A stretch of 11,794 nucleotides of DNA from Coriobacteriia bacterium (GTDB lineage: Bacteria; Actinomycetota; Coriobacteriia; Anaerosomatales; PALSA-660): the NCBI GenBank assembly GCA_030652345.1, contig JAUSAU010000066.1:1-11794 (forward strand). The letters run 5' to 3'. Both the position numbers and the translations under genes were made by a program. The notes beneath the pieces were generated by a model that had not been told where the DNA came from, searched no databases, and worked only from the letters and a program-made list of their open reading frames with translations. This document shows positions 6,936-11,009 of this stretch, one piece after another (positions within the stretch are counted from its first letter, which is position 1; every line of letters begins with the position of its first letter).

Positions 6936-8141
6936 TCAGGCGGCAGGCTCCCGCGGCGGAAGCGGCGGCGCGGGCCGGGCGATGAGCTTCGAATACGCGT
7001 AGGGCACGACGCCCAGCGTCAGCACTCCCGCCAGGAGGCCGGGCGCCCACGCGCCGACCGTCTGGAGCAGCGCGCCCGCCACCGACGGCGCGGGGATGCG
7101 CGTCAGCGATCCGAGGGCCGTCGACAGCCCGATGATGCCGCCCACCTCGTCGGGGTAGACGGCCTTCGTCAGCGCGCTGCCGACGATCGTGTTGGTGACC
7201 GCGAGCCCGATCGACAGGAACGGCATGACGGCGAGGAGCACCCAGACGTTGGGGACGAACCCCCAGACGCTCAGTGCGAGTCCGGCGACGATGCTGGCGC
7301 CGACCATCAGACGAGCGTCGCTGAAGCGCTTGGTCAACTGCCCGATGAGGCCGACCTGGATGATCACCTGCAGGATGCCGACGTAGCCGAGCACCAGCCC
7401 GTTCGCACGCGCGTCGAGTCCGAGTGAGTGTGATGCCCAGAGCGTGAACCCGCCTTCGAACACCGCGAAGGTGAAGCCCGTCACGATGCGCAGCCACAGG
7501 ATCGGACCGACGCGCGGGAGCGCGAGCGCGGTCGCGAGCTCGTGGAGGTTGAACCCGTGGGCGGGCGCCGCGGCGATCTCTGCGCGACGCTCTGCGGACA
7601 GCGACTCCTTGAGCACGAACGCCACGAGCAGCAGGTTGACCGCGGCCAGGCCGGCCGCCACGAACGGCGGCACGTGCAGGCCGATACCGGACAGCAGCCC
7701 GCCGCTCACGGGACCGAGGATGAATCCGAGTCCGAAGGCGGCGCCGATGAGCCCGAACGCCTTGCCGCGGTCCTCCTCCGACGTCACGTCCGCCATGTAC
7801 GCCTGCGCGACCGAGATGTTGCCGCCGGTGATGCCGTCGATGAGCCGGCTCACGAACAGCATCCACAGCGCGGACGAGAAGCCCAGCATCAGAAGTGCAC
7901 AGACCGTGCCGCCGATGCTGAGCAGCAGGATCGGCTTGCGCCCGTAGATGTCCGACATGCGCCCGAGTATCGGTGCGGCCACGACCTGCGCGAGCGGATA
8001 CATCGAGAAGATGAGGCCGGTCACGAACGGGTTCGCACCGAACTTGAGCGCGTAGTCGGGCAGCAGCGGCAGGACGAGCGAGAAGCTCAGCATGTCGACG
8101 AGCACGATGCCGAAGATGACGAGCAGGCGACGGTCCTTCAC
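6936..8141 (-). CDS. MFS multidrug/tetracycline-type exporter (DHA1 family)
   Basis: This 401-residue, probably 12-helix carrier of the major facilitator superfamily is expected to export a drug or small toxic compound in exchange for protons. TM1 carries VDMLSFSLVLPLLP, with Asp16 where TetA-type exporters have a conserved acidic residue. The loop after TM2 has motif A (GRMSDIYGRKP, 60-70). TM4 carries the RLIDGITGG segment (99-107), and TM5 motif C (GFILGPVSGG, 139-148) is the antiporter signature. The start is GTG at 8141, backed by GGGAG (8150-8154 on this strand) eight bases upstream. It lies 73 bases after the HsmA-like gene on the same strand and may share its transcript. It ends 13 bases from the convergent PASTA gene. 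The true substrate cannot be read from the sequence; a tetracycline-resistance label would overstate it. Confidence 0.88.
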   Translation of the reverse strand: MKDRRLLVIFGIVLVDMLSFSLVLPLLPDYALKFGANPFVTGLIFSMYPLAQVVAAPILGRMSDIYGRKPILLLSIGGTVCALLMLGFSSALWMLFVSRLIDGITGGNISVAQAYMADVTSEEDRGKAFGLIGAAFGLGFILGPVSGGLLSGIGLHVPPFVAAGLAAVNLLLVAFVLKESLSAERRAEIAAAPAHGFNLHELATALALPRVGPILWLRIVTGFTFAVFEGGFTLWASHSLGLDARANGLVLGYVGILQVIIQVGLIGQLTKRFSDARLMVGASIVAGLALSVWGFVPNVWVLLAVMPFLSIGLAVTNTIVGSALTKAVYPDEVGGIIGLSTALGSLTRIPAPSVAGALLQTVGAWAPGLLAGVLTLGVVPYAYSKLIARPAPPLPPREPAA

Positions 8142-8214: not shown

Positions 8215-8601
8215 CTACGAACCGCGCGTCATCCCGGCCACCATCCCGGTGAAGTACGGCACGAGCCAGATCAGCCAGACGGCGATGCTCCACCGGTGGA
8301 ATGTCGCCCGCGCCTCCGGTGTGCCGCGCAGCAGCGTCCGTGTCGCCCACGCCGCGTGGGCCGCCATGAGTACGAACGCGGCGATCCCGGTCACCCCGTG
8401 GACGCTCAGCCATTCCATCGGTCGAGCGAGCAGTTCGCCCATCATCCACGAGGCCACGCCGTCGCACGTCAGGCCGAGCCAGAAGGCGATGACGTGCCAC
8501 GCGCGCAGATCGCGGACCGCTCGCTCGCTCCATACCCCGAGCGAGTAGAAGGCGAGTGCGGAGGTCATGAGTATGGTCGGTAGTATGAGTTCGGCAGGCA
8601 T
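8215..8601 (-). CDS. Four-helix membrane protein, HsmA-like family
   Basis: This 128-residue integral membrane protein has four predicted helices at about 4-24, 35-54, 66-90 and 104-123. Conserved-looking patches include FYSLGVWSER (18-27), WHVIAFWLGLTCD (35-47), VHGVTG (67-72), AAHAAWATRTL (80-90) and FHRWSIAVWLIWLVPYFTGM (101-120). This pattern matches my memory of the small HsmA-type family (a TIGRFAM hypothetical membrane family), whose function is not established as far as I know. Four histidines (36, 68, 82, 102) lie in or at the ends of helices; His68 and His82 are 14 residues apart in helix 3. The ATG at 8601 directly abuts the opposite-strand divergent region. AGGA lies seven bases upstream, while TAGGAT in the same place resembles a -10 element, so the transcript could instead be leaderless. 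It is followed on the same strand by the MFS exporter gene. Confidence 0.75.
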   Translation of the reverse strand: MPAELILPTILMTSALAFYSLGVWSERAVRDLRAWHVIAFWLGLTCDGVASWMMGELLARPMEWLSVHGVTGIAAFVLMAAHAAWATRTLLRGTPEARATFHRWSIAVWLIWLVPYFTGMVAGMTRGS

Positions 8602-8805
8602 ATGAGCATCCTATACGGAATCGACGCGCGGCGCGCCATTCACCGACGCTGTGACGCCGTTCACCGCCGCCGGGGGAGGCGACGCGTTACGCGGTGTCGA
8701 ACCCTTCTCCATACTGCCGACCTGATGCGGCTCGTGCCGCGTGGCCCGCCAGCCACCGAGACGCATCCGAGACTGTCCGTGCATCCGCTCTCAGGGGGAC
8801 CCGCT
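8602..8805. other. Divergent promoter region between the HsmA-like and OFA carrier genes
   Basis: This 204-base gap separates two divergent genes and must hold promoters for both. On the minus strand TAGGAT, 7-12 bases before the HsmA-like ATG, is a good actinobacterial -10. On the plus strand CATACT (8710-8715) with TTACGC 17 bases upstream is a weak candidate for the carrier. The frame of the carrier stays open back to 8602, but that extension is Arg/His-rich with no carrier similarity and no ribosome site. Confidence 0.5.
8636..8663 (+). promoter_or_regulatory. Two CCNTTCA units 21 bases apart
   Basis: CCATTCA (8636-8642) and CCGTTCA (8657-8663) lie exactly 21 bases apart, extending to ATTCACCG and GTTCACCG. 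They sit between the two divergent starts, about 35-60 bases from the HsmA-like start and 140-170 from the carrier start. The same heptamer at the same step occurs before the cytochrome gene, suggesting a shared operator. Confidence 0.45.
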
Positions 8806-10071
8806 ATGCCTCGTACCGCTTCCGCGCGCGGTTGGATCGTCACGCTGGCCGGCTTGGGGATCAATCTGGCGCTCGGCGTCCTCTACTCATGGAGCGTCAT
8901 CGCCAAGACCCTCACGAAGACGTGGGGGTGGAGCGCCGGTCAGGCGAACCTTCCCTACGCGATCGCTGTGGGGACGTTCGCGCTGATGATGGTGTTCGCC
9001 GGGCGGGCGCAGGACCGATTCGGGCCGCGCATCGTCGCGAGCGTGGGCGGTGCTCTGACCGGTGCGGGGCTTCTCGTCGCGAGCATGGCGAGCGCCGGCA
9101 ACGCGCTGCCGATGCTTCTCGGCTTCGGGCTGCTCACGGGCACGGGTATCGGGTTGGGATACGCCGCGGCGACGCCGGCCGCGGTGAAATGGTTCCCTCC
9201 CGCTCGCAAGGGTCTGATCACCGGTCTGGTCGTGGCGGGCTTCGGCCTCGCCTCCGTCTACATCGCGCCACTCACCACGCAGCTGCTCGGTGCATACGGG
9301 GTCCAGGGCACGTTCCGTGTGCTCGGCGGCGCCTTCCTCGTCGTGACGGTCGGCCTCGCCCAGCTGCTCGTCAACCCGCCTGCGGGCTACGTCGCCGCGG
9401 GTGCGGCCGCCGGTGCGGCGACCACCGGCTCCCAGCGCGACGAGTACGACTGGCGCGACATGGTGCGCACGCCGCAGTTTGTGCTGCTGTGGGCGATGTA
9501 TGCCTGTTCCGCGTTCGCCGGACTGATGATCATCGGCCACATGGCGAAGATCGCCACGTTGCAGGCGGCCGGAGCCGACCTCGGATTCCTGCTGGTCGCG
9601 GTCCTCGCGATCGGGAACGCGTCGGGCCGCGTCGTCGCGGGCATCGTGTCCGACCGCATCGGCGGCATCCGTACGATGCTCGTGGTCTTCACGATCCAGG
9701 CCGGGCTCATGTTCGCGCTCGCGTCCGCCGACACCGCCGCCCTGCTCGTTCCCGTGGCTGCCGCCGTCGGCTTCTGCTACGGCGCGAACCTCTCGCTGTT
9801 CCCGTCGACGACCGCGGGGTTCTTCGGTACGAAGCACCTCGGCGTGAACTACGGACTCGTCTTCACCGCATGGGGTGTCGGCGGTGTCTTCGGATCGATG
9901 ACGGCGGGCAGCATCGTCGACAGCGCGGGCAGCTACGGTGTCGCGTACGCGGTCGCCGCTGTCCTCTGCCTCGTCGCGTCGGCGCTGACCTTCGCCACGA
10001 AGGCCCCGCGTCCGCGCAGTGTGGAGTCCATCCGGGCCGCCGGGCCCGAGAAGGCGGAAAAGGCCGCCTAG
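8806..10071 (+). CDS. OFA-family MFS carrier (oxalate/formate antiporter type)
   Basis: This 421-residue, probably 12-helix carrier belongs to the oxalate:formate antiporter branch of the MFS. Typical strings are LGVLYSWSV (23-31) in TM1, GRAQDRFGPR (66-75) as the loop after TM2, GTGIGLGYAAATPAAVKWFP (112-131) in and after TM4, KGLITGLVVAGFG (135-147), and VNYGLVFTAWGVGG (347-360) in TM11. Arg275 in TM8 may correspond to the substrate Arg of OxlT, whereas Trp356 occupies the TM11 stretch where OxlT has its second substrate-binding basic residue; alignment is needed. The substrate is probably a small carboxylate, but it is not known. ATG 8806 is chosen because AGGGGGA (8793-8799) lies six bases upstream and TM1 begins at once. 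The tail (401-421) is charged and cytosolic. It shares a leader motif with the cytochrome gene downstream. Confidence 0.88.
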   Translation: MPRTASARGWIVTLAGLGINLALGVLYSWSVIAKTLTKTWGWSAGQANLPYAIAVGTFALMMVFAGRAQDRFGPRIVASVGGALTGAGLLVASMASAGNALPMLLGFGLLTGTGIGLGYAAATPAAVKWFPPARKGLITGLVVAGFGLASVYIAPLTTQLLGAYGVQGTFRVLGGAFLVVTVGLAQLLVNPPAGYVAAGAAAGAATTGSQRDEYDWRDMVRTPQFVLLWAMYACSAFAGLMIIGHMAKIATLQAAGADLGFLLVAVLAIGNASGRVVAGIVSDRIGGIRTMLVVFTIQAGLMFALASADTAALLVPVAAAVGFCYGANLSLFPSTTAGFFGTKHLGVNYGLVFTAWGVGGVFGSMTAGSIVDSAGSYGVAYAVAAVLCLVASALTFATKAPRPRSVESIRAAGPEKAEKAA

Positions 10072-10095
10072 GTCTGCTCAGCATCGCTCCGAAGT

Positions 10096-10145
10096 CCGTT
10101 CATCGCTTACTAGCGACCTTTCAGTAACACATAGCGACCGTTCAG
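10096..10145 (+). promoter_or_regulatory. Three 21-base-phased CCNTTCA repeats before the cytochrome gene
   Basis: CCGTTCA (10096-10102), CCTTTCA (10117-10123) and CCGTTCA (10138-10144) recur at exact 21-base steps. Units two and three are 14-base direct repeats, TAGCGACCTTTCAG (10111-10124) and TAGCGACCGTTCAG (10132-10145), differing at one base. A TCGCT-TACT-AGCGA inverted repeat (10103-10116) bridges units one and two. Two helical turns per step would place a bound protein on one DNA face. The array ends 123 bases before the cytochrome start, a good position for an activator or repressor. The remaining 10146-10268 shows no clear promoter. Confidence 0.6.
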
Positions 10146-10268
10146 CCGACATTAACGGCATGGGACGGAGCTACTGTCCGATCCGGGGCCACACCGGACA
10201 TCTCGCGAGCCGAGATGGTGGCCAGGAGTGGCGAGACGCCACAGGACAGGGATGAAAGGGGTAGGGCG

Positions 10269-11009
10269 ATGAAGGCGACAACGATCCGCCGCGCTATGGT
10301 CCTGGCCGTGGCATGCACGGTCCTCACACTCTCGGGCGCCATGTCGGCGTTCGCCGATGCGCCGCTGTCTTCGGACAACACGACATGCAGGGGATGCCAT
10401 GAGGCGCGCCGGCCCGGCGCAGCCGTTCCGGTCGCGACCTTCAGCGACGGTGTCAACTACACGCTGTGCCGCTCCTGTCACTGGATCGACGGCAACGTCT
10501 GGGTCGACGCCTATCGTCACAAGCACGTCCCGGGCTCGGACTGTCAGCGCTGCCACTTCGGCATGGGCGATCGCGGACCCGACTACCGACCCGTGGTCCG
10601 CACGTCGTCGGGCTTCTTCAGCACCCGCAACATCCGCTCGATGAGCGCGGCACAGATCCACGCGGTCCATGTCAACGGCTCCTGGCCGCAGAGCGGTACA
10701 GCGGTGGCCAACGGCCCGAACTACTGCAACTCCTGCCACGCGCCGGCCGCGTGCGATGCATGTCACGTGACCCAGGCCGGGCACCGTCAGCACGGCATGG
10801 GTTCCGCCGCATCGCGCACGGCCGCTGCATCACCGTCTCGTCTCGTGGCGAACGGGACCCGGATCGGCGTCACCTGGGTGCCGACTGCGGTCGGCAGGTC
10901 GCAGACATGCCTGAGCGTCGGCTGTCATGGCACCGGCCTCCCGGCTCCGGCCCCCGCGTGCTCCCCGTGCCACACTCGCGAGTCCGCCGGGCATCGGCCC
11001 GCCAAGTAG
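10269..11009 (+). CDS. Secreted multiheme c-type cytochrome (seven predicted hemes)
   Basis: This 246-residue exported electron carrier has a Sec signal peptide (residues 1-29, basic head MKATTIRR, likely cut after AFA) and no other membrane segment. Six CxxCH sites begin at C40, C67, C92, C153, C162 and C231. A seventh, CLSVGCH (214-220), has a four-residue gap (CX4CH), as in some cytochromes c3. All 14 cysteines of the mature chain are used by these sites. Exactly seven further histidines (84, 86, 131, 134, 172, 175, 242) remain, enough to give every heme a second His ligand. The ATG at 10269 is preceded by AAGGGG (10256-10261); an upstream in-frame GTG at 10215 would only add residues before the signal. 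I do not recognise a named subfamily. It would move electrons outside the membrane, but its partners are not in view. Confidence 0.9.
   Translation: MKATTIRRAMVLAVACTVLTLSGAMSAFADAPLSSDNTTCRGCHEARRPGAAVPVATFSDGVNYTLCRSCHWIDGNVWVDAYRHKHVPGSDCQRCHFGMGDRGPDYRPVVRTSSGFFSTRNIRSMSAAQIHAVHVNGSWPQSGTAVANGPNYCNSCHAPAACDACHVTQAGHRQHGMGSAASRTAAASPSRLVANGTRIGVTWVPTAVGRSQTCLSVGCHGTGLPAPAPACSPCHTRESAGHRPAK

Follow-up and report, generated by a model that had tools for sequence, protein, structure and literature searches.

What would bind three short direct repeats set at even steps before the gene of a multiheme cytochrome c? The repeats lie in a contig from a Coriobacteriia bacterium of the Anaerosomatales, which was analyzed over its whole 11,794 nucleotides (hereafter the window). 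The window opens with the end of dnaK, followed by grpE, dnaJ (assigned by eye), hspR (NCBIfam), a small lipoprotein-like ORF, and clpB (Pfam). Past clpB come a PASTA-like lipoprotein ORF (by eye) and, in reverse orientation, a Tet-like MFS gene and an HsmA-family gene. The window closes with an OFA-family MFS gene, the cytochrome gene, and the gene of an ABC-type ATPase, in that order. The features under discussion are collected in Table 1.

Table 1. Positions in the window of the repeat units and of the genes and leader associated with them
Feature	Position	Strand	Basis
Putative operator, unit 1, CCGTTCA	10096..10102	+	direct reading; scored by PFOR matrix
Putative operator, unit 2, CCTTTCA, 21 bp past unit 1	10117..10123	+	direct reading; PFOR matrix
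Putative operator, unit 3, CCGTTCA; with flank GACCGTTCAGCCGACA, common to the L237 leader	10138..10144	+	
Candidate weak fourth unit, CTGCTCA, 22 bp 5' of the unit at 10096	10074..10080	+	inferred
5' leader, predicted to fold, 3' of the putative operator and 5' of the start codon	10174..10249	+	z -2.53
Multiheme cytochrome c, 246 aa	10269..11009	+	six CxxCH, one CX4CH; signal-peptide-like N-terminus (by eye)
Second putative operator, unit 1, CCATTCA, 170 bp 5' of MFS start	8636..8642	+	sequence; PFOR matrix
Second putative operator, unit 2, CCGTTCA, 149 bp 5' of MFS start	8657..8663	+	sequence; PFOR matrix
OFA-family MFS monocarboxylate transporter	8806..10071	+	NF049980 (L-lactate MFS model) above cut-off

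The reverse MFS protein (6936-8141) is related to Tet exporters but reaches the cut-off of no Tet model (among the best 25 of 61 families); the HsmA-family gene (8215-8601) adjoins it on the same strand. The best full-length matches to the window ClpB are 81-82% identical and include one from the Anaerosomatales (locus L020, genome G017).

The repeats and known operators of similar layout

When the sequence was re-read, the three CCNTTCA heptamers were found where the original prediction had placed them, in 21-bp steps, within the gap of 197-198 bp on the plus strand between the MFS stop (10071) and the cytochrome start (10269). Units two and three also proved to be near-identical in context, as had been said, with TAGCGACCTTTCAG (10111-10124) and TAGCGACCGTTCAG (10132-10145) agreeing by eye at 13 of 14 positions. 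The window contains nine CCNTTCA heptamers on its two strands where 2.97 are expected, and nine or more were reached in none of 200 shuffles. It contains three CCNTTCA-N14-CCNTTCA pairs, against a single pair in one of 1000 dinucleotide-preserving shuffles and none in the remaining 999. Pairs at 21 bp being as frequent in shuffled sequence had been named beforehand as fatal to the idea, and this was not the outcome. The exact 21-bp triple did not appear in any of these shuffles, and a motif-free test, in which any evenly spaced heptamer triple with at least 6/7 identity was counted, gave 2 of 1000 shuffles of the leader. The triple is real and not a product of chance. A search of 8560-10300 for sigma-70-like promoters gave none.

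A second pair of units, at 8636 and 8657 and again 21 bp apart, lies upstream of the gene for the OFA-family transporter. This protein scores 414 bits against the NCBIfam model for L-lactate MFS transporters (cut-off, 320) and shares 31% identity with E. coli YhjX in the aligned part; YhjX itself belongs to the OFA class. The named homologs, among the matches listed, come mostly from Coriobacteriia MAGs, and no relative was found in the viral contigs scanned with the transporter.

The original prediction knew of no described operator with a 21-bp layout. That claim was mistaken, since such spacing is reported for BtsR at btsT (20/21), for YpdB at yhjX (21), and for CoxC and RcoM, all LytTR regulators (PMC4847170, PMC11347149). 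LytTR sites are described as repeats of 9-11 nt, direct or inverse, that are separated by 11-13 nt (PMC4847170), and the window units have the direct-repeat form of this layout. The closest comparison is with the BtsS/BtsR (YehU/YehT) system of E. coli, in which BtsS senses pyruvate and BtsR activates btsT (PMC10653868). The BtsR site is printed as CCGCTCA, CCGCTTA, and CCACTCA, with steps of 20 and 21 bp (PMC4847170). We located these units 183 to 142 bp before btsT, and all three fit CCRYTYA at 7/7. Like the btsT operator, the window triple consists of three CCRYTYA-type units on the strand of the gene in steps of about 21 bp, and it agrees with CCRYTYA at 20 of 21 positions (7, 6, and 7 by unit). 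It differs in having steps of 21/21 and in its middle unit, CCTTTCA, which deviates at position 3. The targets differ as well, BtsR acting on the pyruvate symporter BtsT (CstA family), whereas an OFA transporter and a multiheme cytochrome follow the window sites.

The other known systems share part of this arrangement. YpdB, of the YpdA/YpdB (PyrS/PyrR) pair, is reported to bind upstream of yhjX, its sole direct target, at GGCATTTCAT repeats with 21-bp spacing (PMC4847170); direct repeats at 21 bp before an MFS gene are common to both, but the YpdB half-site differs from the window units and yhjX has two units rather than three. The operons of LytTR Regulatory Systems (LRS) carry ACCACTTAC repeats with 12 bp between them (PMC6193735), which resemble those of the window in both unit and period, although LRS use an inhibitory membrane protein rather than a kinase and their sites precede their own operons. 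The CoxC and RcoM operators are functional triples, with LytTR units spaced by about two helical turns (PMC11347149). This layout is also that of the window, but the half-site is different, the regulators sense gases, and CoxC represses. In the half-site itself, the window units resemble those of BtsR, which fit CCRYTYA at 7/7 three times over, and those of LRS.

From the GTTCA core of the units, the original prediction had drawn a likeness to the sites of PhoP-type regulators of the OmpR family, which do bind direct repeats. The M. tuberculosis PhoP site, as described in PMC4832192, has 7-bp motifs and a 4-bp spacer, and its period is accordingly 11 bp against 21 bp here. Before the pyruvate:ferredoxin oxidoreductase genes treated below, spacing 21 is prominent together with 20, 41, and 42, while spacing 22 does not occur. 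The likeness is not supported, and binding by an OmpR/PhoP-type response regulator is very unlikely. We return to LytTR operators as the preferred reading.

Pairs at 21 bp before genes of relatives

For comparison across genomes, the unit was relaxed to CCRYTYA, and pairs at spacing 21 were compared with pairs at spacings 9-44, with thresholds of at least 12/14 and at least 13/14. The choice of CCRYTYA was not blind, because the BtsR half-site was already known when the unit was fixed. Loci of OFA transporters were picked by protein only, 29 of them with actinobacterial titles (including L047, L071, and L073) and 46 others. Because the genomes are related, the promoter counts that follow are not counts of independent events: at 12/14, 14 of the 29 actinobacterial OFA promoters had a pair at 21 bp, against a mean of 2.54 for the other spacings (highest, 7), and at 13/14 there were 10 of 29 against a mean of 0.34 (highest, 2). 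Opposite-strand pairs at 21 bp numbered one and none at the two thresholds. Where pairs were found among the 26 loci listed, they lay 113 to 184 bp before the start. In the 46 loci from outside the Actinobacteria, we counted 2 against 1.23 at 12/14 and 2 against 0.23 at 13/14, so that similar sites are rare there (2/46). The exact CCNTTCA pair was absent from all 80 transporter loci, and an initial matrix, applied with a strict threshold to each unit, recovered just four transporter loci at 21 bp. The expected conservation before transporter orthologs was thus borne out for relaxed pairs, in about half of the actinobacterial loci, and failed for the exact form.

A second set of promoters was provided by the gamma gene of pyruvate:ferredoxin oxidoreductase (PFOR), which was chosen because two genomes (L310 and L311) had exact pairs there; these two are left out of the main counts. 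At 12/14, 24 of 27 PFOR promoters had a pair at 21 bp, against a mean of 3.00 at other spacings, and at 13/14 there were 14 of 27 against 0.83. On the opposite strand the counts were 1 and 0. With L310 and L311 included, the counts become 26/29 and 16/29. All 16 pairs listed share the strand of the gene and are located 132 to 191 bp upstream of its start. Spacings 20, 41, and 42 were also high, as is expected from triples with steps of 20 or 21 bp, and spacing 22 was zero at each threshold. In the loci L310-L339, the candidate operator before the PFOR operon is a LytTR-like one with 21-bp spacing, also as a triple with steps of 20/21 bp. The contig with the PFOR gene also carries a LytTR gene, at a distance of about 18-23 kb, in at least 22 genomes.

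The spacing alone would also fit an activator of the AraC/XylS family, since these proteins likewise bind direct repeats about 21 bp apart; our literature search on AraC half-sites at 21 bp found no paper. With one AraC family model, HTH_18, matches were present in 18 of 61 relatives (16 over the cut-off) and absent from G019, G020, and G102. The first two of these genomes have the PFOR site (L338 and L330) and the third has the triple, all without HTH_18, and the half-site matches LytTR units. An AraC/XylS protein is thus a highly improbable binder, and we continue with the LytTR reading.

A matrix was built from 52 units of PFOR promoters only (26 loci) and used to score pairs at 21 bp on both strands of the window. 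The pair at 8636 ranked first (22.5 bits), followed by those at 10117 (18.0) and 10096 (13.3), with the fourth at 8.9. When 65 other spacings were scored over the whole window, their best pairs averaged 11.6 and reached at most 18.7, which places the 8636 pair above every control spacing and the 10117 pair nearly so; the 10096 pair, taken alone, is not above them. The candidate weak unit CTGCTCA at 10074 scored 11.0, not above the control mean of 11.6.

Smaller sets of promoters gave mixed counts. For operons with Usp, DUF485, and symporter genes near LytTR genes, 3 of 7 loci had the pair against 0.14, with 2 at spacing 20; the pairs are in reverse orientation. Promoters of ccmE had it in 3 of 30, one close trio, also in reverse orientation; in three close genomes (L277, L278, and L123), exact 21-bp pairs lie about 275 bp before this gene of cytochrome c maturation. 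Among 40 LytTR loci (L149-L188), relaxed CCNTTCA pairs were found 19 times at spacing 36 versus 9 times at spacing 21.

The cytochrome, its leader, and its relatives

The cytochrome matches Pfam Cytochrome_C7 weakly, under the cut-off. When the protein database was searched at E 1e-3 with the single sequence, only the protein itself was retrieved, and in the genome contigs no homolog was confirmed. Relatives were found by a six-frame search of related genomes together with a two-sequence profile, and were present in 37 of 99 genomes. A further 15 homologs (P0123-P0137), of metagenomic origin, were also found. A DNA search with the leader gave short matches in 2 of 149 genomes.

The closest relative, 42-44% identical, is in genome G102 (locus L237), and here the surroundings are also conserved. 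By tblastn, the locus matches the window at GrpE, DnaJ (68%), and HspR (64%), then at the lipoprotein ORF, at the Tet-like MFS in reverse orientation (55%), at the cytochrome, and at the ABC ATPase (87%), with no hit to clpB or to a complete OFA gene. Its leader contains CCGTTCG, CCGTTTG, and CCGTTCA at exactly 21/21 bp, which begin 152, 131, and 110 bp before the cytochrome start and agree with CCRYTYA at 19 of 21 positions. The window and this leader do not differ in the third unit and its flank, GACCGTTCAGCCGACA. Among 5000 first-order Markov leaders, none reached the score of the L237 triple, and none of 5000 reached that of the window triple. The opposite strand of the L237 leader has another 13/14 pair. 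In a test of 22 cytochrome leaders, for which a script had guessed the starts, the 21 other than L237 had no 13/14 pair. The anticipated conservation in orthologous leaders was therefore seen, as a degenerate triple (19/21), in the one syntenic cytochrome leader found. Two further cytochrome sites were found by pattern: in G009, an exact pair at two four-heme genes, the first of them 93 bp downstream, and in G033, an exact pair at an ORF followed by a 15-heme gene.

The region 10172-10280 is predicted to fold into a closed, multi-branched structure (-41.7 kcal/mol, z -2.53), and 1 of 200 shuffles folded as well. The repeats could in principle have arisen by chance, or mark a structure of the leader RNA rather than a protein site, and the good folding of the downstream leader would agree with the latter. 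The shuffles, the conservation of the 21-bp spacing across promoters, and the lack of an Rfam match at gathering score all speak against this, and we regard an origin by chance or RNA structure as extremely unlikely. Rfam searches of the window leader gave no family at gathering score and three sub-threshold matches at the level of chance; a riboswitch reading of this leader was rejected for want of a family at gathering score. At 13 of 16 loci of cytochrome relatives, a c-di-GMP-II riboswitch was found (L218, L220, L221, L222, L227, L228, L229, L232, L234, L235, L236, L244, and L245, with L235 and L244 being the same place); L224, L226, and L237 are without one.

A putative LytTR system and its signal

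LytTR domains (PF04397) were found in 291 of the 296 genomes of the class that were searched, and no LytTR gene was seen in the window. In G107 (locus L139), an exact triple stands just past the 3' end of the gene for a LytTR response regulator, which adjoins a kinase with His_kinase and GAF domains; a DUF485-like gene (just under the cut-off) and a symporter gene are also near. The regulator shares 38% of its residues with BtsR and 34% with YpdB. A similar locus (L186) has a symporter that hits SSF and a His_kinase and GAF kinase beside its LytTR regulator. Two LytTR types recur in the relatives inspected, one in these kinase/symporter operons and the other in nfn-like operons, where it adjoins small exported ORFs with degenerate 21-bp pairs (in L177, L178, L179, and L181, the pairs precede the small exported-looking ORF). 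G102, the genome with the conserved triple, gave the nfn-like-operon type as the sole type found and not the kinase-adjacent one; the nfn-like-operon type may be the binder there, or the assembly of G102 may be incomplete.

The class also has another abundant group of regulators, the LuxR-type proteins with 10-12 transmembrane segments, in which several of its genera are rich (PMC9734109), and one of these might use the repeat. A crude regular expression for the LuxR helix flagged no ORF (L101-L140 except L120-L123), and the E. lenta paper, in the portion available, names no such repeat (PMC9734109). On these two results we rejected a LuxR-type regulator and consider it most improbable. In the portions available of regulator papers on the class (PMC9734109, PMC10269533), no site of this kind is named, and the titles and abstract openings found in the literature name no LytTR site or regulon in Coriobacteriia.

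We conclude that the triple and the 8636/8657 pair are very probably operators of the BtsR/YpdB kind, through which one LytS/LytTR two-component system would co-induce the transporter and the cytochrome. One LytTR domain would occupy each CCRYTYA-like unit, and the step of 21 bp, two helical turns, would align the bound regulators along a single face of the helix. This agrees with the cooperative regulator that had been proposed from the spacing, which is now the likely reading. A LytS-type kinase would phosphorylate the LytTR regulator, whichever paralog this is, and the phosphorylated copies would bind cooperatively and recruit RNA polymerase. Transcription would be activated, on the analogy of YpdB at yhjX.

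The signal could be pyruvate or a related small carboxylate. That pyruvate is sensed is suggested by the target genes alone, namely PFOR, the OFA transporter, and the SSF-type symporter. The similar sites at OFA-transporter and PFOR promoters likewise favor the carboxylate sensor guessed at in the original prediction. Two cultured species of the Anaerosomatales are described as failing to grow on, or to oxidize, pyruvate or lactate, and as using H2 or formate (PMC9686372). For this reason formate, acetate, and internal pyruvate are also possible signals.

The operator class is known, but its placement before an adjoining carboxylate transporter and multiheme cytochrome, along with the conserved copy before PFOR, looks new. 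A likely class of regulator can thus be named for a multiheme cytochrome in a mostly uncultured lineage, and the regulation of such a cytochrome would be tied to carboxylate uptake and pyruvate oxidation. We more tentatively suggest that deep-branching Coriobacteriia might have one BtsR-like LytTR system with a carboxylate-responsive regulon of PFOR, OFA and SSF-type uptake, and a multiheme cytochrome, with many related cytochromes placed instead under c-di-GMP-II riboswitches; we think this nearly as probable as its opposite. If this single-regulon reading is true, a carboxylate signal would switch electron disposal. As a model of the site, CCRYTYA-N14-CCRYTYA is usable for the prediction of LytTR targets in Coriobacteriia.

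In its exact form, CCNTTCA-N14-CCNTTCA, the pair is present in 154 of the 296 class genomes. By hand count there are about 246 matches in the 296 genomes against about 56 for a backward control, and exact CCRYTCA pairs are weakly enriched in relatives (76 versus 59 in the control, also by hand); these genome-wide exact counts are not decisive because many of the pairs lie in coding sequence. The intergenic exact pairs that we inspected are near genes for PTS permeases, a CstA gene, and a glycoside hydrolase gene beside a LytTR regulator, and another is near a DeoR-like/1-phosphofructokinase pair (by eye). An exact CCGTTCA triple in G022 (L122:8737-8785) adjoins a DtxR-type regulator/FeoB pair on the other strand.
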